Shown here piece after piece: positions 28,061-43,206 of a DNA stretch of 64,000 nt; the stretch's first letter is position 1; each line of letters starts with the position of its first letter. Source of the stretch: Jannaschia pohangensis (GTDB taxonomy: Bacteria > Pseudomonadota > Alphaproteobacteria > Rhodobacterales > Rhodobacteraceae); assembly GCF_900113875.1 (NCBI RefSeq), contig NZ_FORA01000001.1, forward strand, positions 1,116,001 to 1,180,000, in the 5' to 3' direction. The notes beneath the pieces are model-generated. The model was not told the DNA's origin and made no database searches. It saw only the letters and a program-made list of their open reading frames with translations. The translations under genes were made by a program, and so were the position numbers.

Positions 28061-29365
28061 ATGGCTGACCTGACTTCCACGTTCGTAGGCATCAAATCGC
28101 CCAATCCCTTTTGGCTCGCCTCGGCGCCGCCGACCGACAAGGAATACAACGTCCGCCGTGCCTTCAAGGCCGGGTGGGGCGGCGTGGTCTGGAAGACGCT
28201 CGGGGCCGAAGGGCCGCCCGTCGTCAACGTGAACGGGCCCCGATATGGCGCGATCTATGGGGCGGACCGCCGCCTTCTGGGCCTCAACAACATCGAGCTG
28301 ATCACCGACCGGCCGCTCCAGACCAATCTGGACGAGATCAAGTCCGTCAAGCGCGACTTCCCCGACCGCGCCATGGTGGTGTCGATCATGGTCCCCTGCG
28401 AGGAAGACGCCTGGCGCGCGATCCTGCCCCGGGTCGAGGAGACCGGTGCCGACGGGATCGAGCTGAACTTCGGCTGCCCACACGGCATGTCCGAGCGCGG
28501 TATGGGTGCCGCCGTGGGCCAGGTGCCCGAATACATCGAGATGGTCACCCGCTGGTGCAAGCAATACACCCGCATGCCCGTCATCGTGAAGCTGACCCCC
28601 AACATCACCGACGTGCGCAAGCCTGCGGCGGCGGCGAAACGTGGGGGCGCGGATGCCGTCAGCCTGATCAACACGATCAACTCGATCACATCGGTCAACC
28701 TCGACACGATGTCGCCCGAACCCTCCATTGACGGCAAGGGCAGCCACGGCGGCTATTGCGGCCCGGCGGTCAAGCCCATTGCCCTGTCGATGGTGAGCGA
28801 AATCGCCCGCGACCCGGAAACCCACGGGATGCCCATCAGCGGGATCGGCGGGGTCACCACCTGGCGCGATGCGGCCGAATTCATGTCGCTCGGCGCGGGC
28901 AACGTGCAGGTCTGCACCGCCGTGATGACCTATGGCTTCAAGATCGTGGACGAGATGACGGCGGGCCTGAGCCGCTGGATGGACGAGAAGGGCTATCGCA
29001 GCGTCGACGAGGTCGTGGGCCGCGCCGTGCCCAATGTGACCGACTGGCAGTATCTGAACCTCAACTATGTCGCCAAGGCACGGATCAGCCAGGATGACTG
29101 CATCAAATGCGGGCGCTGCTATGCCGCCTGCGAGGACACGTCGCATCAGGCGATCAGCATGTCCGCCGACCGCACCTTCGAGGTAATCGACGCGGAATGC
29201 GTCGCCTGCAACCTCTGCGTCGATGTCTGCCCGGTCGAGAACTGCATCACGATGGAGCGCCTGGCCCCCGGCACGGTCGACGCGCGCACCGGCAAGGTGG
29301 TCGAGGCGGAGCCCGCCGACTGGACGACGCACCCCAACAACCCGGGCGCAGTCGCGGCGGAGTGA
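28061..29365 (+). CDS. preA: Dihydropyrimidine dehydrogenase subunit PreA
   Basis: A 434-residue FMN/4Fe-4S subunit. The dihydroorotate-dehydrogenase-like barrel begins LTSTFVGIKSPNPFWLASAP. The general-acid cysteine lies in ELNFGCPHGMSERGMGAA. A C-terminal ferredoxin domain contains DDCIKCGRCYAACED and ECVACNLCVDVCPVENC, giving two 4Fe-4S clusters. It reduces uracil and thymine at the FMN. The upstream TTCGGAGGACC is a strong RBS. With HydA and the carbamoyl amidase encoded downstream, the whole reductive route to beta-alanine or beta-aminoisobutyrate is present. Confidence 0.94.
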   Translation: MADLTSTFVGIKSPNPFWLASAPPTDKEYNVRRAFKAGWGGVVWKTLGAEGPPVVNVNGPRYGAIYGADRRLLGLNNIELITDRPLQTNLDEIKSVKRDFPDRAMVVSIMVPCEEDAWRAILPRVEETGADGIELNFGCPHGMSERGMGAAVGQVPEYIEMVTRWCKQYTRMPVIVKLTPNITDVRKPAAAAKRGGADAVSLINTINSITSVNLDTMSPEPSIDGKGSHGGYCGPAVKPIALSMVSEIARDPETHGMPISGIGGVTTWRDAAEFMSLGAGNVQVCTAVMTYGFKIVDEMTAGLSRWMDEKGYRSVDEVVGRAVPNVTDWQYLNLNYVAKARISQDDCIKCGRCYAACEDTSHQAISMSADRTFEVIDAECVACNLCVDVCPVENCITMERLAPGTVDARTGKVVEAEPADWTTHPNNPGAVAAE

Positions 29366-31853: not shown

Positions 31854-32477
31854 TCAGATGGCCACCAAGGGGGTCAGGAGTCGGGTGAAATGCGTAACAA
31901 GGTGGCGCTCCGCCTCGGCCCAGGGGTCGCGGACGTCGCCAAGGACGGCGCGGACCTGCACCTCGAAGTCGGCGTAATGCTGCGTCAGCGCCCAGATGGA
32001 GAAGATGAGGTGATGGGGATCCGACGGCGCGAGGCGGCCCGTCGCCATCCATCCCGCGATGACCCCGGCCCGGGCATCCACCAGACGGCGCAGGTCGCCC
32101 GACAGGTCCGCCCCCATCAAGGGCGCGCCGCGCAGGATCTCGCCCGCGAACAAGCGGCTTTCACGGGGGAAATCCCGCGCGAGATGGAGTTTGCGGCGCA
32201 CATAGGCGAGAAGTTCCGCCATAGGCTCCCCCTCGGGATCGAGGGCGCGCAGCGGGTCGAGCCAGGCTTTCAGCAGGCGCGCCAGAAGGTCGGTATAAAT
32301 CGCTTCCTTGGTGGCGAAATAATAGAGGAGGTTGGGCTTCGACAGCCCCGCCGCCTGCGCGATCTCGTCCACGGTGGCACCACGAAATCCCTTGGCCGAG
32401 AACACCTCCAGCCCCGCCTCGCGGATGCGCCGACGGCGGTCGCGCTGGATCCGGGTGGGGGCCTCGTCTTTCGCCAT
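31854..32477 (-). CDS. rutR: TetR-family regulator, RutR-like
   Basis: A 207-residue TetR protein. The HTH is VDEIAQAAGLSKPNLLYYFATKEAIYTDLL (about 36-65). The C-terminal region (FAGEILRGAPLMG, LIFSIWALTQHYADFEVQVRAVL) matches the RutR/YcdC ligand-binding domain. RutR senses uracil and controls pyrimidine genes. A near-consensus RutR box lies 114 bp upstream, in the gap shared with the divergent amidase gene. That supports autoregulation and control of the catabolic unit. The ATG at 32477 gives the normal length. Confidence 0.85.
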   Translation of the reverse strand: MAKDEAPTRIQRDRRRRIREAGLEVFSAKGFRGATVDEIAQAAGLSKPNLLYYFATKEAIYTDLLARLLKAWLDPLRALDPEGEPMAELLAYVRRKLHLARDFPRESRLFAGEILRGAPLMGADLSGDLRRLVDARAGVIAGWMATGRLAPSDPHHLIFSIWALTQHYADFEVQVRAVLGDVRDPWAEAERHLVTHFTRLLTPLVAI

Positions 32478-32590
32478 GCTCAGTCCTCGGGCGGCGGCGC
32501 GACAGGCTGCCGGTTCTATGGGCACATCGCACCCGCCCCCTGCGGCGCGGTCGCAACGGTTGACTGCCGTTGCCCCCGTGTTAGCCTGTC

Positions 32591-32634: not shown

Positions 32635-33885
32635 ATGGCAGCCGCAGGACAGAACTTGTCGATTGATCCCGACCGGCTGTGGGACAGCCTGATGGAGATG
32701 GCGAAAATCGGACCCGGTGTGGCGGGTGGCAACAACCGCCAGACCCTGACCGACGCCGACAGCGAGGGCCGCCACCTGTTCCAGAAATGGTGCGAGGCGG
32801 CGGGCATGACCATGGGTGTCGATGCCATCGGCAACATGTTCGCCACCCGCCCCGGCACCGACCCCGACGCCCTGCCCGTCTATGTGGGCAGCCACCTCGA
32901 CACCCAGCCGACGGGCGGCAAATACGACGGCGTTCTGGGCGTCTTGGGCGGGCTGGAACTGATCCGCACGCTCAACGACCTGAACATCAAGACGAAGCAC
33001 CCGATCTGCGTGACCAACTGGACGAATGAGGAGGGGACGCGCTTTGCCCCCGCCATGCTCGCCTCGGGCGTCTTTGCCGGGGTTCACACCCAGGACTGGG
33101 CCGAGGACAAGCGCGACGCCGAGGGCAAGCGGTTCGGTGACGAGCTGGACCGCATCGGCTGGCGCGGCACGGAGGAGGTGGGCGCGCGCAAGATGCACGC
33201 CATGTTCGAGCTGCACATCGAACAGGGCCCTATTCTGGAAGCCGAAGGCAAGGATATCGGCGTGGTAACCCACGGTCAGGGCCTGTCCTGGACGCAGGTG
33301 ACGATCCACGGCAAGGACAGTCACACAGGCTCTACCCCGATGCCGATGCGCAAGAACGCGGGGCTGGCCATGGCGCGCATCCTGGAGAAGGTCGAGGAGA
33401 TCGCCCTGTCGCACGCGCCCCACGCCGTGGGCGCGGCGGGCCACATCGACGTCTATCCCAATTCCCGCAACGTGATCCCGGGCAAGGTGGTGTTCACGGT
33501 CGACTTCCGGTCGCCCACCCTGTCGGTGATCGAGGACATGGAAACACGTCTGCGCAGCGAGGGGCAGGCCATCGCCGATGCCATGGACATGCAGATCGAA
33601 TTCGAAAAGGTCGGCGGCTTCGATCCCGTCACCTTCGACGAGGGCTGCGTCACGGCGGTGCGATCGGCGGCGGAGCGTCTGGGATATTCCCACATGGACA
33701 TCATCTCGGGTGCCGGTCACGACGCCTGCTGGATCAACCGCGTGGCGCCAACGGCCATGATCATGTGCCCCTGCGTCGACGGCCTGTCGCACAACGAGGC
33801 CGAGGAAATCACCAAGGACTGGGCCAAGGCGGGGGCCGATGTCCTGCTTCATGCGGTTATCGAAACCGCCGGGGTCGTGGCGTGA
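32635..33885 (+). CDS. Zn-dependent N-carbamoyl-beta-alanine amidase (M20 family)
   Basis: A 416-residue amidase/carbamoylase of the M20/allantoate-amidohydrolase type. Metal-site segments are GSHLDTQPTGGKYDGVLG, NWTNEEGTRFAP, ELHIEQGP and SGAGHDACW. The dimerisation lid includes GKDSHTGSTPMPMRKNAG. The family covers beta-ureidopropionase, allantoate and carbamoyl-amino-acid hydrolases. The preT/preA/hydA context points to N-carbamoyl-beta-alanine, giving beta-alanine, CO2 and NH3. It begins the rightward unit after the RutR box. Confidence 0.88.
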   Translation: MAAAGQNLSIDPDRLWDSLMEMAKIGPGVAGGNNRQTLTDADSEGRHLFQKWCEAAGMTMGVDAIGNMFATRPGTDPDALPVYVGSHLDTQPTGGKYDGVLGVLGGLELIRTLNDLNIKTKHPICVTNWTNEEGTRFAPAMLASGVFAGVHTQDWAEDKRDAEGKRFGDELDRIGWRGTEEVGARKMHAMFELHIEQGPILEAEGKDIGVVTHGQGLSWTQVTIHGKDSHTGSTPMPMRKNAGLAMARILEKVEEIALSHAPHAVGAAGHIDVYPNSRNVIPGKVVFTVDFRSPTLSVIEDMETRLRSEGQAIADAMDMQIEFEKVGGFDPVTFDEGCVTAVRSAAERLGYSHMDIISGAGHDACWINRVAPTAMIMCPCVDGLSHNEAEEITKDWAKAGADVLLHAVIETAGVVA

Positions 33886-34904: not shown

Positions 34905-36368
34905 ATGTCCAAGGTCATCAAGAACGGCACCATCGTCACCGCCGACCTCCAGTGGAAGGCCGATGTCCTGATCGAGGGGGAGCATATCGCCCAGATCGGC
35001 GAAAACCTTTCGGGCGACGAGGTCATCGACGCCACCGACGCCTATGTCATCCCCGGCGGCATCGACCCGCATACCCATCTGGAAATGCCCTTCATGGGCA
35101 CCACCGCCCACGAGACCTTCGAGTCCGGCACCTTCGCGGCGGCGGCGGGCGGGACCACGATGCTGGTGGATTTCGTCCTTCCGGGCGAGGATGGGTCGCT
35201 ACTCAATGCGATCGATGACTGGGACCGCAAGAGCCGGGACCAGATCTGCACCGACATTTCCTATCACATGGCGATCACCGGCTGGAACGAGAAGATATTT
35301 GCCGAGATGGAGGAGGTCGTGCACAAGCGCGGCATCAACACCTTCAAGCATTTCATGGCCTACAAGGGCGCGCTGATGGTCGAGGACGACGAGATGTTCG
35401 CCTCCTTCCGCCGCTGCGCCGAACTGGGCGCGCTGCCGCTGGTCCATGCCGAGAACGGCGACATCGTGCAGGAGTTGCAGCAGAAATACCTGGCCGAGGG
35501 CGTCACCGGCCCCGAGGGTCACGCCTATTCCCGCCCGCCCGAGGTGGAGGGCGAGGCCGCCAACCGCGCCATCATGATCGCCGATGCCGCAGGCTGCCCG
35601 CTCTACATCGTCCACGTCTCGTGTGAACAGGCGCACGAAGCCATCCGCCGCGCCCGCCAGAAGGGGATGCGTGTCTATGGCGAGCCGCTGATCCAGCACC
35701 TGACACTCGACGAGACCGAGTATTTCAACAAGGATTGGCAATACGCCGCCCGCCGCGTCATGTCCCCGCCCTTCCGCAACAAGATGCATCAGGACAGCCT
35801 CTGGGCCGGCCTCGCCGCCGGGTCGCTGCACGTCGTCGCCACCGACCACGCAGCCTTTTCCGACGAACAGAAGCGCATGGGTGTCGGCGACTTCACCCGC
35901 ATCCCCAACGGCACCGGCGGGCTGGAGGAACGTATGGCGATGCTCTGGACCAAGGGCGTCGAGACGGGCCGCCTGACGCCCGAGGAGTTCGTCGCCGTCA
36001 CCTCGACCAACATCGCCAAGATCCTGAACATGTACCCCCTCAAGGGCGGCATCATGCGGGGCGGCCACGCCGATCTGGTGGTCTGGGACCCAGGCATCCA
36101 CCGCACCGTCTCGGTCGCCACCCAGAAGTCGATCATCGATTACAATGTTTTCGAGGGCATGGAGCTGAAAGCCGCCCCCCGCTACACCCTGTCGCGCGGC
36201 GAGGTCATCTGGGCCCATGGCCAGAACTCCCAACCGCGACCGGGCCGGGGCCGCTTCGTCAGCCGCCCACCCTTCGCCAGCGCCTCGCAGGCCCTGTCGA
36301 AGTGGAAAGCGCTCAACACCCCGCGCAAGATCGAGCGCGACCCGATGAACATTCCAGCGGGGGTTTGA
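34905..36368 (+). CDS. hydA: Dihydropyrimidinase
   Basis: A 487-residue cyclic amidohydrolase. It has the metal ligands GGIDPHTHLE (H56, H58), the carbamylated lysine region FKHFMAYKG (about 147-155), HAENGD with H181, HVSCEQAHEA, and the catalytic aspartate in VATDHAAFSDEQK. It hydrolyses dihydrouracil and dihydrothymine to N-carbamoyl-beta-amino acids, the step between PreTA and the amidase. Length is normal for D-hydantoinases. CAAGGAG is its RBS. A low-GC HEPN gene begins within its stop codon. Confidence 0.94.
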   Translation: MSKVIKNGTIVTADLQWKADVLIEGEHIAQIGENLSGDEVIDATDAYVIPGGIDPHTHLEMPFMGTTAHETFESGTFAAAAGGTTMLVDFVLPGEDGSLLNAIDDWDRKSRDQICTDISYHMAITGWNEKIFAEMEEVVHKRGINTFKHFMAYKGALMVEDDEMFASFRRCAELGALPLVHAENGDIVQELQQKYLAEGVTGPEGHAYSRPPEVEGEAANRAIMIADAAGCPLYIVHVSCEQAHEAIRRARQKGMRVYGEPLIQHLTLDETEYFNKDWQYAARRVMSPPFRNKMHQDSLWAGLAAGSLHVVATDHAAFSDEQKRMGVGDFTRIPNGTGGLEERMAMLWTKGVETGRLTPEEFVAVTSTNIAKILNMYPLKGGIMRGGHADLVVWDPGIHRTVSVATQKSIIDYNVFEGMELKAAPRYTLSRGEVIWAHGQNSQPRPGRGRFVSRPPFASASQALSKWKALNTPRKIERDPMNIPAGV

Positions 36369-36844
36369 TGAACAGTGATCTTAGAAATGCCGCAGGACTT
36401 GCAGTCGTAGAAAACTTTATAATTTCCGAGATATATGGGACAGAAGAATGGAAAGCTGCCGTTAGTAAAGTGGAAAAGAATGCAGGTTACGTGCCGGGAA
36501 CTCTTTCAGATGGATACTTCACGCAGGTTCGTGTCCTATCTGTGCTTTATTTCATTTTAGTTTTCCCAAAAGATCGGTGGTTAAATGATGCTATTTCTTC
36601 GATCAAATTCCTTAAGGTATGGAAAATTTGGTCTGAAAAATATGATATCAATGATGATCCAAAGCGATTTTTGAGGCATATGCGTAATTCAATAGCCCAC
36701 GGCGATGTCGAGTTCAAATTTCGTAAATTCGTATTTCGTGATCGCAATAATCCAGAACTAGCTCTAGATGCAGATTGTCTAGCAGATTTAATTGACACTG
36801 TTGGCCGGTTCTTTGCAGTATATCCTTTTTCATCGGAACGGTGA
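36368..36844 (+). CDS. HEPN-domain protein in a low-GC insertion
   Basis: A 158-residue all-helical protein. The RNase-type HEPN motif is intact: R106-N-S-I-A-H111 in RHMRNSIAHGDVEF. Such proteins (for example the pEK499_p136-type group) are often toxin or antiphage ribonucleases. The gene is much richer in A+T than its neighbours and uses codons rare here (ATA, AGA, TTA), indicating transfer. Its ATG overlaps the hydA stop (TGATG), so it is translated from the catabolic operon. No nucleotidyltransferase or other antitoxin partner is adjacent. The foreign composition continues about 90 bp past the stop. Confidence 0.75.
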   Translation: MNSDLRNAAGLAVVENFIISEIYGTEEWKAAVSKVEKNAGYVPGTLSDGYFTQVRVLSVLYFILVFPKDRWLNDAISSIKFLKVWKIWSEKYDINDDPKRFLRHMRNSIAHGDVEFKFRKFVFRDRNNPELALDADCLADLIDTVGRFFAVYPFSSER

Positions 36845-36937
36845 ATGCGGGTGTTCTCAATCCGATCATATGACAATGGACTTTTTGCCTCCACTGGTGC
36901 GAATTTACGTTAGTTTCAAGAAAATGAAGTCGATAAA

Positions 36938-37711
36938 ATGACCACCATCTCCGCCCAATCCCTCGACCTCACCTTCCCGTCCCCAGACGGCCCCGTCCAC
37001 GCGCTCTCCGACATCTCGCTGGACATAAACGAAGGCGAATTCGTCTCCTTCATCGGCCCCTCGGGCTGCGGCAAGACCACCTTCCTGCGCTGCGTCGCAG
37101 CACTCGAAACCCCCACCGGCGGCACCCTCACCGTCAACGGCATGGCCCCCGATGACGCTCGGAAAGCGCGCGCTTACGGTTACGTGTTCCAAGCCGCCGG
37201 CCTCTACCCCTGGCGCACCATCGGGCGGAACGTCACCCTGCCGCTGGAAATCATGGGCTACTCCAAGGCCGACCGGACCAAGCGGATGGAAGACGTTCTC
37301 GAACTGGTCGAACTGGGCAACTTCACCAACAAATACCCCTGGCAACTCTCGGGCGGGATGCAGCAACGCGCCTCCATCGCCCGCGCGCTGGCCTTCGACG
37401 CCCCGATCCTGCTGATGGACGAACCCTTCGGCGCACTGGACGAGATCGTCCGCGACCGCCTGAACGAGGAACTGCTCTCCCTCTGGAAGCGCACCAACAA
37501 GACCACGCTTTTCGTCACCCACTCCATCCCCGAAGCGGTCTACCTGTCGACCAAGATCGTCGTCATGTCCCCCCGCCCGGGCCGCATCACCGACATCATC
37601 GACTCGCCCCTGCCAAAGGACCGCCCCCTCGACATCCGCGACACGCCGGAATTCCTGGCCGTCGCCCACCGCGTCCGCGAAGGCCTGCGGACCGGGATGG
37701 AAGCCGCATGA
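36938..37711 (+). CDS. ABC transporter ATP-binding protein (SsuB/ThiZ-like)
   Basis: A 257-residue ATPase of the nitrate/taurine/pyrimidine importer group. Walker A GPSGCGKTT (40-48), signature LSGGMQQR (137-144) and Walker B ILLMDEP (157-163) are intact. With two permeases and an NMT1/THI5-type binding protein it forms an importer located after hydA. Its leader is low-GC and lacks a good Shine-Dalgarno, apparently because the HEPN insertion replaced the original upstream bases. Confidence 0.9.
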   Translation: MTTISAQSLDLTFPSPDGPVHALSDISLDINEGEFVSFIGPSGCGKTTFLRCVAALETPTGGTLTVNGMAPDDARKARAYGYVFQAAGLYPWRTIGRNVTLPLEIMGYSKADRTKRMEDVLELVELGNFTNKYPWQLSGGMQQRASIARALAFDAPILLMDEPFGALDEIVRDRLNEELLSLWKRTNKTTLFVTHSIPEAVYLSTKIVVMSPRPGRITDIIDSPLPKDRPLDIRDTPEFLAVAHRVREGLRTGMEAA

Positions 37712-38165: not shown

Positions 38166-38590
38166 TCCTGCGTCGCGCCACCTCCGACGATGCCCCCGCC
38201 TGTGCCGCCATCGTGGCCGATTGGCTTCGCGCGACCGACTGGATGCCCGATGCGCCGACACGCGACCAGTTGGAGGCCATCATGCGCGACGGCTTCCCCC
38301 GGCGCGAGGTCTGGGTCGCCGCGACCGAAGACGACGCCATTCTGGGCTATCTGTCTTTCGCCTTCGACGAAAACCATATCTATGGCCTCTATGTCGCCAC
38401 CCCGGGCCAAGGTGTCGGGCGCGCCCTGCTGGACCGGGTCAAGGCGGACCGCGACCGCATCACCCTGCGCAGTCACGCGCCCAACACCGCCGCCCATCGG
38501 TTCTATGAACGGGAAGGTTTCCGCGTTGTGGAACGGGGCCTGACAGGGGCCGACGGCGTCCCCGAAATCCTGATGGAGTGGCGGCGATGA
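38162..38590 (+). CDS. GNAT-family N-acetyltransferase
   Basis: A 142-residue GNAT protein. It begins MILRRATSDDAPACAAIV. The acetyl-CoA motif is LYVATPGQGVGRALLDRVK, and the C-terminal part HAPNTAAHRFYEREGFRVVERG is typical. Acceptor unknown. It overlaps both neighbours by 4 bp (ATGA), so it is co-translated with the small membrane protein and the first permease. Acetylation of a pyrimidine-derived amine is possible but unsupported. Confidence 0.85.
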   Translation: MILRRATSDDAPACAAIVADWLRATDWMPDAPTRDQLEAIMRDGFPRREVWVAATEDDAILGYLSFAFDENHIYGLYVATPGQGVGRALLDRVKADRDRITLRSHAPNTAAHRFYEREGFRVVERGLTGADGVPEILMEWRR

Positions 38591-39567
38591 CCGATGCGAC
38601 CTTCGCCGCAACACCTCCGGGCGCGACGTCGCGCCGCCTGCGTGAATTCGCCCGCAACTTCGGCCCGGTCGTGACCGTGATCGCGGCGCTGATCGGGCTG
38701 TGGTACCTCGCCTGCATCCCGATGAACGCGCAGAACAGCCTGCTGCTGGCCGAACGCGAGGGCATCGCCGTCAGCCCCGCCACGGCGGCCGAGCGGCGCG
38801 ATGTCGGCGGCATCGCCCTTGCCTTCGCCACCCCCGATCAGGCCCTGGCCCGCGCCTTCGATCAGGACCGCCCGCGCCTGCCGACCCCGCATCAGGTGGT
38901 GACCGAACTCTGGGACACGATCGTCGGACAGAAGATCACCTCCAAGCGCAGCCTTGTCTGGCATGCGGGAATCACCCTTGCGCCCACGCTTCTGGGGTTC
39001 CTGATCGGGTCGATCGCAGGCATCGCGCTGGCCGTGGGCATCGTCCACAGCCGCGTGATGGACCTGAGCGTCATGCCATGGGCCATCGCCTCCCAAACCA
39101 TTCCGATCCTCGCCATCGCGCCGATGATCATCGTAGTGCTGAATTCAATCGGCATCCAAGGCGTGCTGCCCAAGGCCATCATCTCGGCCTATCTGTCGTT
39201 CTTTCCGGTGACCGTGGGCATGGTGAAGGGCCTGCGCGCCGCCTCGCCCTCCGATCTCGACCTGATGCGGACATGGAATGCCAGCGGCCTGCGGACGCTG
39301 CTGTCCCTGCGCCTGCCGATGTCGCTGCCCTATCTTTTCGCCTCGCTCAAGATCGCCGTGGCCGCGGCCCTCGTGGGCGCCATCGTGGGCGAGCTTCCGA
39401 CCGGCGCCGTCTCGGGTCTCGGCGCGCGCCTGCTCGCGGGCAGCTACTACGGCCAGACGGTGCAGATCTGGTCCGCGCTTTTCGGGGCGGCCATCGTGGC
39501 GGCCCTGCTGGTGGCGGTCATCGCCGCAGTCGAACGGTTCACCCTCAGACGGATGGGTTTGGCATGA
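38587..39567 (+). CDS. ABC transporter permease 1
   Basis: A 326-residue permease of the SsuC/TauC/ThiX type with about six or seven helices. The first helix is near residue 25 (VVTVIAALIGLWYLACI), and a soluble insert of about 75 residues comes before the second. The EAA-type coupling loop is LRTLLSLRLPMSLPYLFASLK. It is coupled by ATGA overlaps to the acetyltransferase and the second permease. Confidence 0.88.
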   Translation: MTDATFAATPPGATSRRLREFARNFGPVVTVIAALIGLWYLACIPMNAQNSLLLAEREGIAVSPATAAERRDVGGIALAFATPDQALARAFDQDRPRLPTPHQVVTELWDTIVGQKITSKRSLVWHAGITLAPTLLGFLIGSIAGIALAVGIVHSRVMDLSVMPWAIASQTIPILAIAPMIIVVLNSIGIQGVLPKAIISAYLSFFPVTVGMVKGLRAASPSDLDLMRTWNASGLRTLLSLRLPMSLPYLFASLKIAVAAALVGAIVGELPTGAVSGLGARLLAGSYYGQTVQIWSALFGAAIVAALLVAVIAAVERFTLRRMGLA

Positions 39568-40511
39568 GTTCATCCGCAGATCGGACCCGTCGCATCAACG
39601 ATTGGATCCTGGGGCTGGAGGCTCTGCGTTGGCTCCTCGGCGCGGTGGCGGTCATCTCGCTTGGGGCCCTCCTGTTCTGGCAGGTTTCGCTTCTTCTGGC
39701 GATCTGGCTGGGGCTCTGGGCCGCAAACATCGGGCTCGCCAGAACGCCGATGGCCAGAATTGCCTCTCCGATCCTCTTCGGCCTCACCCTGCTGATCCTG
39801 TGGGAAATGGCCTGCCGCCTGTTCGCCATCCCGACCGTCATCCTGCCCGCTCCGACCCAGATCGCCGCGGCCTTTGCCACCAACCTCCCCACCCTCTGGG
39901 CCGACTTCGTGCAGACCGTCCTCAAGGGCGCGCTCGGCGGGTGGATCATCGGTTGCACCGCCGCCATCGCGACCGCCCTCCTGGTGGCGCGGTCCGATTT
40001 CCTGCGCCGCGGCCTCCTCCCGGTGGGCAGCTTCATGGCCGCCCTTCCCATCGTCGGCACCGCGCCCATCCTGGTGATGTGGTTCGGCTTCGGGTGGGAG
40101 AGCAAGGCGGCGGTCGTCGTCGTCATGGTCTTCTTCCCCGTCCTCGTGAACACCGTCGCGGGCCTGTCGGACACAACCGCGATGCAGCGCGACCTGATGC
40201 GCACCTACGGCGCCAGCGCGGGCCAGGAACTCCGCTTCCTGCGGCTCCAGGCCGCCCTGCCCTTCATCTTCAACGGCCTCAAGATCGCCACAACCCTCGC
40301 CCTCATCGGGGCCATCGTCGCCGAATTCTTCGGCAGCCCGACCCTCGGCATGGGCTTTCGCATCTCGACCGAGGTGGGCCGCTTGAACCTTCCGATGGTC
40401 TGGGCCTCTATCGTGGTCGCGGCGCTGGCCGGATCGCTGTCCTACGGGGCCATCGCCCTGCTCGAGAAACGCCTGACCTTCTGGCATCCTTCACAACGCG
40501 GACGGGCCTGA
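39564..40511 (+). CDS. ABC transporter permease 2
   Basis: A 315-residue permease homologous to the preceding one. An extra pair of N-terminal helices precedes the core; conserved parts are IPTVILPAPTQIAAAFATN and the coupling loop QELRFLRLQAALPFIFNGLK. Two different permeases suggest a heterodimeric channel, as in pyrimidine-type importers of this class. Confidence 0.88.
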   Translation: MSSSADRTRRINDWILGLEALRWLLGAVAVISLGALLFWQVSLLLAIWLGLWAANIGLARTPMARIASPILFGLTLLILWEMACRLFAIPTVILPAPTQIAAAFATNLPTLWADFVQTVLKGALGGWIIGCTAAIATALLVARSDFLRRGLLPVGSFMAALPIVGTAPILVMWFGFGWESKAAVVVVMVFFPVLVNTVAGLSDTTAMQRDLMRTYGASAGQELRFLRLQAALPFIFNGLKIATTLALIGAIVAEFFGSPTLGMGFRISTEVGRLNLPMVWASIVVAALAGSLSYGAIALLEKRLTFWHPSQRGRA

Positions 40512-40558: not shown

Positions 40559-41545
40559 ATGAAACACCTGATCGCCGCCGCCACCCTGGCGCTCGCCACG
40601 CCCGCCTTCGCGGACGGCCATGCCAATACCGTCACCCTGCAACTGCAATGGGTCACCCAGGCCCAGTTCGCGGGCTACTACGTCGCCCTCGACAAGGGCT
40701 TCTACGAGGCCGAGGGCCTCGACGTCACCATCCTGCCCGGCGGCCCCGACATCGCTCCGCCCCAGGTCCTCGCGGGGGGCGGCGCCGACGCCATGCTCAA
40801 CTGGATGCCCTCCGCCCTCGCCGCGCGCGAAAAGGGCCTGCCCGTGGTCAACATCGCGCAGCCCTTCAAGACGTCGGGCCTCATGCTCACCTGCTGGAAG
40901 GACACCGGCATCACCGGCCCGCAGGACTTCCGCGGCAAGACCATCGGCGTCTGGTTCTTCGGCAACGAATACCCCTTCCTGTCTTGGATGAGCCAGGAGG
41001 GCATCCCGACCGAGGGCGGCGAAGACGGCGTGACCGTCCTGAAACAGGGCTTCAACGTCGATCCCCTGCTGCAACGCCAGGCCGACTGCATCTCCACCAT
41101 GACCTACAACGAATACGGTCAGGTGCTGGACGCCGGCGTCTCGCCCGATGAACTCGTCACCTTCAAGTACGAGGACATGGGCGTCGCCACCCTGGAAGAC
41201 GGCATCTGGGTTCTGGAAGAGAACCTGGAGGACGAGGTCTTCGTCGACAAGATGACCCGCTTCGTGCGCGCCTCGATGCAGGGCTGGAAATACGCCGAGG
41301 AAAACCCGGCCGAGGCCGCCGCCATCATCATCGAGAACGACGAGACCGGCGCCCAGTCCGAGGCCGCGCAACTGCGCATGATGGAAGAGATCGCCAAACT
41401 CACCGCCGGCTCCAACGGCGCATTGGACGAGGCCGACTACCAGCGCACCGTCGACACCCTGCTGGCCGGTGGGTCGGACCCCGTGATCTCGGCAGCGCCC
41501 GAAGGCGCGTGGACCAGCGTGATCACGGATGCCGCGCTGAACTGA
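40559..41545 (+). CDS. NMT1/THI5-like ABC substrate-binding protein
   Basis: A 328-residue exported binding protein. A signal peptide ends at about residue 19 (LALATPAFA). Family signatures are VTLQLQWVTQAQFAGYYVALDKGFYEAEGLDV, ending in IAPPQVLAGGGADAMLNW, as in ThiY/THI5 pyrimidine-precursor binders. Location after hydA suggests uptake of uracil, thymine or a hydropyrimidine rather than a thiamine precursor, but this is inferred. ACGGAGAG precedes the ATG, and a strong terminator follows. Confidence 0.88.
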   Translation: MKHLIAAATLALATPAFADGHANTVTLQLQWVTQAQFAGYYVALDKGFYEAEGLDVTILPGGPDIAPPQVLAGGGADAMLNWMPSALAAREKGLPVVNIAQPFKTSGLMLTCWKDTGITGPQDFRGKTIGVWFFGNEYPFLSWMSQEGIPTEGGEDGVTVLKQGFNVDPLLQRQADCISTMTYNEYGQVLDAGVSPDELVTFKYEDMGVATLEDGIWVLEENLEDEVFVDKMTRFVRASMQGWKYAEENPAEAAAIIIENDETGAQSEAAQLRMMEEIAKLTAGSNGALDEADYQRTVDTLLAGGSDPVISAAPEGAWTSVITDAALN

Positions 41546-41802: not shown

Positions 41803-43206
41803 ATGACTGATTACACGCCTTTCAAGAACACCAAGCTTAGCAACTTAACCGCCTTAGATTTAAACGATCTTTCGCAGGTAAGAGAGGGCTGGTATGTAGA
41901 ATATAAGGAGAAGATCCCAAACTCGAAGTCTATTGCGAAATCTGTTTCTTCTTTTGCAAACACCTATGGCGGATGGATATTTTACGGGATAAAAGAGAGG
42001 TCTGGGGCAGATAATTCTGCTGAATGCTGCCCCGGCATCAATCATGAACAGTTAGACGAATCGATTCAAACCATTCGGCAGAGTATATCTGCCCACCTCA
42101 ACCCACTTCCGCACTTCGAAATTAAAATCCTTACTGGGCCGAATTCCGAGATGGGGCTTTCCGAGATATGTTCTGTAATTTGTATTCATGTCCCGATGAG
42201 CTTCTCGACTCCTCACATTCATTCTAATGGCTGTATATTTCGGCGAGTAGCCGATAGCTCTGAGCCAAAATCAGAAACCGATCGTCACCAATTAGATAAC
42301 CTCTGGGAAAGAGGTGAAAAGGTAAATCAAAAATATGAAGATTGGGTAAAACGTCATCCCGAACTTACAGAAGGTGATGTTGAAATTCCTTACCTCCGCA
42401 TACTACTGGACGCTGACCTTCGTAGCGTGGAAGGTGCGTCTTGGCGTTTCTCCAGCAAGGAGATTTCAACCATCCTCAACGAACCAGATAGTGGCCCATA
42501 CGCGCCCGTTGATTCTTGTTATCGCTCCAATCGAGGATTAATAGCAAGGCAAACATCAAGTTTGTCAAAACATTCTCAATTTGGCCTCACGTGGATTATC
42601 GGACCTGGCTTAAAAAGTGAAATATGGATACCATTAAACCTTTATTACACCCATGGCGACCTCCCATACATCGTTGGATTCGAAAAATACGAGAATACTA
42701 CCGAATTTTACGAATTACTCCGGTCTTCACGAGTTACCGATGGGAAGATCCTAGATTTGAATCAGATATGGCAAACCTTGATATCTATAATGAACAGGTA
42801 CATCCAACTTTTGGAAAAGAACAACACGCCAAAGAATAAAATCTTCGCCAAGACCGTAATATCAGGCGTTCGCCAATGTATACCTTTTTTAGACTCAAGT
42901 ACGATACTTTGCAATATTAAAACACAAGGTTTGCCTTTTTGCATCTATGATGAAGTGATAACGCCCTTCGGCTATCACCCTGATACCTTCCACGAAATAA
43001 TAAATATTTTTGACGATGAAGGTTTCGAGAAATATTTATTTCCGACCCTAATGGTAATGGAACTTGTATGCGCCGGTCTGGGCGTTCCGGGTTTCTTTGA
43101 AGAGCCAGGCAGTCAGGACTTGGCGACGCTATTGCGGGAGCTTTCGGAGGCCGGTGAAAGAGCAGTTGGTAGAAAAGCGGCCCAGAATAAAGAACTCGGC
43201 AGTTGA
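41803..43206 (+). CDS. AlbA_2 (Schlafen-like) domain protein, low-GC
   Basis: A 467-residue protein. Residues about 17-65 contain LNDLSQVREGWYVEYKEKIP and the AlbA_2 hallmark SFANTYGGWIFYGIKER, seen in Schlafen-type nucleic-acid-binding proteins and some defence proteins. The remaining 400 residues are not recognised; FRRVADSSEP near 145-155 fits the end of the AlbA_2 region. The gene is markedly A+T-rich and rich in codons rare elsewhere in the window, as expected for recent transfer. No helicase, protease or methylase partner adjoins. Confidence 0.75.
   Translation: MTDYTPFKNTKLSNLTALDLNDLSQVREGWYVEYKEKIPNSKSIAKSVSSFANTYGGWIFYGIKERSGADNSAECCPGINHEQLDESIQTIRQSISAHLNPLPHFEIKILTGPNSEMGLSEICSVICIHVPMSFSTPHIHSNGCIFRRVADSSEPKSETDRHQLDNLWERGEKVNQKYEDWVKRHPELTEGDVEIPYLRILLDADLRSVEGASWRFSSKEISTILNEPDSGPYAPVDSCYRSNRGLIARQTSSLSKHSQFGLTWIIGPGLKSEIWIPLNLYYTHGDLPYIVGFEKYENTTEFYELLRSSRVTDGKILDLNQIWQTLISIMNRYIQLLEKNNTPKNKIFAKTVISGVRQCIPFLDSSTILCNIKTQGLPFCIYDEVITPFGYHPDTFHEIINIFDDEGFEKYLFPTLMVMELVCAGLGVPGFFEEPGSQDLATLLRELSEAGERAVGRKAAQNKELGS

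Follow-up and report, generated by a model that had tools for sequence, protein, structure and literature searches.

A HEPN-like gene of foreign composition in a repeatedly refilled slot of a pyrimidine catabolic operon in Jannaschia

Introduction

How did an A+T-rich gene with a predicted ribonuclease (RNase) motif come to lie inside a run of GC-rich pyrimidine catabolic genes, and what would it do there? The question is posed by a 64,000 bp stretch of the Jannaschia pohangensis genome (RefSeq assembly GCF_900113875.1, contig NZ_FORA01000001.1, positions 1,116,001 to 1,180,000; hereafter the window, its genome being G000 in our comparisons), in which an open reading frame (ORF) of 158 aa (36368..36844, + strand, GC 0.39) separates hydA, encoding dihydropyrimidinase, from the gene of an ABC transporter ATPase. 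An initial annotation had described this ORF as a HEPN RNase-type gene. The explanation we favour, with some reservation, is that it encodes a solo HEPN RNase effector, probably anti-phage, which was acquired horizontally into a gene-swap slot that lies inside an operon and has no recognised integrase.

The HEPN-like gene

The gene upstream, hydA (34905..36368, + strand; TIGR02033, 574.5 bits), ends in a TGA at 36366-36368, and the HEPN-like ORF begins with an ATG at 36368-36370, sharing one base with it in a TGATG (36366..36370, + strand) and running to a TGA at 36842-36844. The GC content of the hydA-ABC gap is 0.39 versus about 0.65 around it, and GC at third codon positions (GC3) is 0.314 in the ORF versus 0.79-0.91 in hydA, hyuC, the ABC ATPase gene and other native genes. 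Two observations of the initial annotation, a start inside the hydA stop codon and an A+T-rich gene amid GC-rich neighbours, were thus borne out. As the frame carries no stop upstream and stays open through hydA back to 35735, the start is placed at 36368 on the basis of the TGATG, the break in composition and homologue length. Of 5000 base shuffles of the gap, one yielded an open run of 158 codons, the longest other ORF at the locus (115 aa, 36547-36894) lies antisense to it, and homologues introduced below are the sole content of the hydA-ABC gap of genome G016 and of the hyuC-hydA gap of genome G197. The ORF is a real gene of foreign composition.

An intact R-N-x3-H motif had also been annotated, and RNSIAH is indeed present. 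The codons of R106-N-S-I-A-H111 (36683..36700, + strand; R106 at 36683-36685, H111 at 36698-36700) specify the predicted RNase site, R, N and H are invariant in all five aligned homologues, a polar residue follows R, and the spacing agrees with the pattern Rx4-6H. Against PF18736 (pEK499_p136) the protein scored 26.1 bits (E 8e-6), missing the gathering cut-off of 26.6 by 0.5, and it is therefore called pEK499_p136-like here rather than a member of that family. Support for a HEPN fold of the 158-aa protein was weak and a PDB sequence search returned no credible match. The assignment to HEPN RNases hence stood with respect to the motif and the invariant residues, and fell short at the level of the profile cut-off, leaving the earlier interpretation partly supported and the observation itself confirmed. 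On sequence grounds the protein is HEPN-like, and RNase activity is likely by analogy with the HEPN superfamily (PMC3710099).

The slot between hydA and the ABC ATPase gene

Matches to hydA were found in 198 of 219 family genomes, and downstream DNA was covered for 53 of the 197 besides G000, chosen as those of highest identity, with G171 in addition; G209 and G132, with hydA near a contig end, were omitted. The comparison covered 72 junctions; removing nine that had no ABC gene within the stretch left 63, and in two of these, G171 and G193, no stop codon stands at the position taken as the end of hydA. Seventeen of 20 Jannaschia genomes contributed, G006 (neither gene found at the cut-offs), G018 (separate contigs) and G005 (genes more than 19 kb apart) being left out. 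A mobile element as the cause of the separation in G005 was unsupported, the ORFs reading as ordinary chromosomal genes.

The hydA-ABC gap measured 417-2336 bp in all 17 Jannaschia genomes with both genes adjacent, and its contents were mostly unrelated between species. Gaps of at least 150 bp occurred in 17/17 Jannaschia genomes versus 16/46 genomes of other genera (P 1e-6, 63 junctions); the gaps of 30 relatives were short (12-141 bp), which is probably the ancestral state. In the window, the swapped segment extends from the hydA stop to the ABC ATPase start (36369..36937, + strand) and is without a match in the 400-kb stretches examined from three other Jannaschia genomes. Its final 93 bp, between the HEPN-like gene and the downstream border, the ABC ATPase gene (36938..37711, + strand), form an A+T-rich spacer (36845..36937, + strand). 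Displacement of the ribosome-binding site of the ABC ATPase gene by the insertion, as initially annotated, is plausible; the ABC ATPase frame opens in a T[AG]ATG overlapping the hydA stop in four of the 30 short-gap relatives (G102, G121, G174 and G253). Hairpins with z at or below -2 versus base shuffles were present in 7 of 25 folded short gaps, with strong examples (z -2.8 to -3.8) directly 3' of the hydA stop in G032, G075, G080, G096 and G135.

Low GC was confined to this joint among those compared within the gene run. A low-GC stretch, defined as 100-bp windows below 0.55 summing to at least 300 bp (a threshold chosen after the data were seen), was present in Jannaschia in 14/17 hydA-ABC gaps and in 0/18 hyuC-hydA, 0/17 ABC-permease and 0/17 permease-substrate-binding protein gaps, although the hyuC-hydA and ABC-permease gaps likewise vary in length. 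When 400-kb stretches of four genomes were examined, each against G000, the hydA-ABC gap was low-GC on both sides in 3/3 comparisons, as was one other co-directional place, near -80.6 kb, with a different bounding gene in G004. The latter was rejected as a second swap slot because its content is conserved, matching G012 at 80% over 376 bp, G002 at 75% over 241 bp and G004 over 50 bp. This 740-bp joint (on G000:C6; GC 0.53), some 80.6 kb to the left of where the window begins, has about 370 bp conserved (80% versus G012) and perhaps holds a structured RNA.

Similarity among Jannaschia genomes extends to the stop codon of hydA and mostly restarts at the start codon of the ABC gene, G001 and G009 being among the few in which it restarts a few codons in. 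G011 and G017, sisters on a four-gene tree (support 1.0), are about 92% identical in hydA and the ABC gene up to the joint, yet their inserts differ, a low-GC 214-aa gene versus a VOC gene. Local identity dips near the joint in some of five pairwise flank profiles. Seven of the 33 filled junctions have an ORF whose start overlaps the hydA stop, though the case of G012 is doubtful; with the count limited to the 25 junctions where that stop is TGA or TAA, seven overlaps give P 0.0007 versus an expectation of 1 in 16, and six, without G012, give P 0.004, both post hoc as the test was chosen after the data were seen.

The inserts themselves are diverse. HEPN-like genes occupy the slots of G000, G015 and G016, an HNH gene that of G004 (7e-7) and a NYN gene that of G019 (3e-11), giving a predicted nuclease in 5 of 17 Jannaschia slots. 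The insert of G014 fuses a VOC domain to a DUF4760-like one (0.0019, under cut-off), and VOC genes were recognised by homology to it in G007 and G017. Orphan proteins are encoded in the slots of G002, G010, G011 and G013, a signal-like protein plus a membrane gene in G003, and GC-rich genes in G009; G001 and G008 have no convincing ORF. The orphan in G012 is probably antisense, the likely insert gene (L017, 2968-3501, minus strand, 177 aa) opposing the operon direction as an exception to co-direction. In other genera, the slot holds DUF6630 (G210), DUF4760 in a Roseicyclus genome (L128; 3.5e-12), and small membrane proteins, identified by reading, in G034, G207, G212, G236 and G256. Gap-versus-gap comparison related the HEPNs to each other, the VOCs (with G228), and the membrane gene of G003 and G009 (weaker match in G014). 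With regard to a shared attC-like site, as on integron gene cassettes, the sole blastn match beyond these sets was 30 bp between G034 and G231, attC folding not being searched. In G014 and G003 a low-GC gene directly follows hydA, ahead of the VOC or membrane gene, which suggests the 3' side of hydA as the insertion target. No integrase or transposase was found among 25 hydA-ABC junction ORFs scanned with Pfam, those of G007, G009 and G017 being among the ORFs unscanned. The 214-aa protein of G011, which contains RNELVH, was considered as a fourth HEPN and was unsupported (single-sequence model pLDDT 31, no Pfam match); a search with it in 198 genomes was empty, without a positive control as G011 is not among them.

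In sum, many different genes lie between the same conserved neighbours, and the hydA-ABC joint in Jannaschia is a slot with repeated gene replacement. Such turnover raises the prospect that the HEPN-like gene is a passing orphan, inserted neutrally where the operon tolerates it, without a selected function and destined for early loss, and the gaps of G001 and G008, devoid of a convincing ORF, would suit this. We regard it as unlikely, however, in view of the intact motif, the full-length homology retained at 27-32% identity, and the absence of low-GC stretches of such size from other length-variable internal joints in Jannaschia.

Homologues and operon context

The three slot HEPNs are homologous over their full length and about equally distant from one another (27-32% identical). 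Their genomes are scattered on the four-gene tree, where G000 and G016 fall into one clade (support 0.91) and G015 groups with G008; the equal distances despite this grouping fit separate arrivals. A profile built from the three (A1) gave one match each in G000, G015 and G016 among the 20 Jannaschia genomes, all within the slot, and in 394 family genomes matched only G000, G197 (2.2e-19) and G342 (8.8e-5). In G197, which belongs to another genus and was added later, outside the 63 junctions, the gene sits in the hyuC-hydA gap and its GTG overlaps the hyuC stop. A second query (A2) matched only G000 at E<=1e-4 in 385 class genomes and one further genome, G831 (1.6e-10), in 398 phylum genomes. 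No homologues were found in plasmids or phages, nor by pattern in viral contigs and genome contigs, and PF18736 matched only G000, under cut-off, in 198 family genomes, with 0/14 control genomes matched. The distant HEPN of G342 (L103, 1246-1887; IRNALSHG) lies inside a translation operon, between genes recognised by eye as tuf and rpsJ; that of G831 (L286, 3768-4804) follows, by eye, a HigA-like antitoxin ORF in an A+T-rich patch.

Four of the six homologues therefore lie in this operon, a linkage that could reflect function or a common gene pool carrying the flanks of this operon. Under the former, the HEPN-like protein would be functionally part of the operon, cutting or tuning its mRNA or being triggered by a pyrimidine intermediate. 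All family homologues with E<1e-10 (four genomes, two genera, two joints) being in this operon accords with such a role, as does the proximity of a RutR-like regulator and preA. We nevertheless judge it improbable, since such a HEPN is missing from 16 of the 19 hydA-bearing Jannaschia genomes, the same slot accepts HNH, NYN, VOC and membrane proteins, and the weaker homologues of G342 and G831 are located elsewhere.

A further alternative makes the gene the toxin of a toxin-antitoxin pair, kept by addiction, with its antitoxin encoded elsewhere or provided by an operon protein. HEPN toxins of HEPN-MNT pairs have the same motif (PMC4621449), and the G831 homologue adjoins a HigA-like ORF. This is highly unlikely in our view, as the ORFs of G000, G015, G016 and G197 show no obvious neighbouring partner, with no antitoxin profile searched. 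For this gene the initial annotation had likewise seen no antitoxin partner, and the ORF listing, with 93 bp left before the ABC gene, agrees. An adjacent MNT gene was also absent from that listing, hydA lying upstream and the 93 bp downstream, with no MNT profile searched.

The surrounding gene run comprises a hyuC-type amidase gene (32635..33885, + strand; NF006769, 697 bits), small genes, hydA, the slot, the ABC ATPase gene, further small genes, two ABC permease genes (38578..39567 and 39564..40511, + strand; named by reading) and, last, a substrate-binding protein gene (40583..41545, + strand; named by reading, no NCBIfam match). We infer that hyuC through the substrate-binding protein gene form one operon. 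Upstream lie preA (28061-29365) and, on the - strand, the gene of the RutR-like TetR regulator (31854..32525; TIGR03613, 221.9 bits, below the cut-off of 368). RutR of E. coli senses uracil. One could imagine the joint as an effector slot that responds to pyrimidines, an exchangeable immune module coupled to a metabolic alarm, in which the regulator would sense uracil from phage-degraded host nucleic acid, the operon would switch on, and a stop/start-coupled cargo nuclease (HEPN, NYN or HNH by species) would be made on demand; we give this idea very little credence.

After the last operon gene, the window contains a second low-GC foreign gene (41803-43206, GC3 0.436) with a Schlafen AlbA_2 domain (PF04326, 1.6e-13), and in G010 (L112) a low-GC gene with a PIN_8 domain (2.6e-63) follows the substrate-binding protein gene. 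Low-GC genes lie beyond the last operon gene in four genomes (G000, G004, G010 and G003), and the operon end is therefore a second entry point.

Discussion

Under the favoured explanation, a solo effector acquired into a gene-swap slot, the HEPN-like protein would be a metal-independent RNase, probably of the abortive-infection type. HEPN domains occur in 4 of 31 additional, newly validated defence systems (PMC13092281). Incoming genes were probably carried on DNA with homologous hydA and ABC flanks, and double recombination between the flanks may have swapped the slot gene, a route proposed for mobile-element-free hotspots (PMC5635113). Insertion would be tolerated here because the joint may be a loose one, where the catabolic half of the operon meets the transport half. 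Transcription of the cargo would start from the operon promoter, with translation of the HEPN-like gene coupled to hydA via the stop/start overlap, and the protein would remain inactive until infection releases its activity. With no antitoxin partner seen at the locus, it should be harmless until triggered, or weakly active.

These findings describe a conserved catabolic operon that has repeatedly taken up foreign genes, as a rule single ones, with a stop-to-start fit and no recognised integrase. Searches built on defence islands would overlook such slots if they lie elsewhere, and a scan of loose operon joints could uncover new effectors. The same site with different genes also offers a natural series on how foreign genes get wired into operons. 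Integrase-free hotspots and orphan genes in operons are already known; an intra-operon slot whose content differs between most species of a genus was not found in the open-access literature.

Among known systems, the protein resembles the pEK499_p136-like HEPN group (Anantharaman et al. 2013, PMC3710099) in its Rx4H motif, the polar residue after R, small size and conflict-type superfamily; in that survey, some members are in operons with restriction-modification, ART/macro, NamA-like or Pgl genes, whereas here the gene is solo in a catabolic operon. The HEPN-MNT toxin SO_3166 (PMC4621449; PDB 5yep) is alike in an RNxxxH at a helix end, a length of 133 aa and a start overlapping the upstream stop. 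Mobile-element-free hotspots (Oliveira et al. 2017, PMC5635113) share the high turnover between two conserved genes and the lack of a recognised integrase; unlike those, the slot usually holds one gene, is intra-operon with a stop-to-start fit, and was compared between species, not strains. A marine alphaproteobacterium similarly shows gene gain and loss within conserved order, with rearrangements fewer within operons, whereas here one operon joint has been refilled repeatedly. Orphan genes, foreign and single, have reportedly been described by Price et al. in 2006 as joining conserved operons. In contrast to those operon orphans, one and the same joint here is filled differently in most species of a genus, with a predicted nuclease in 5 of 17.
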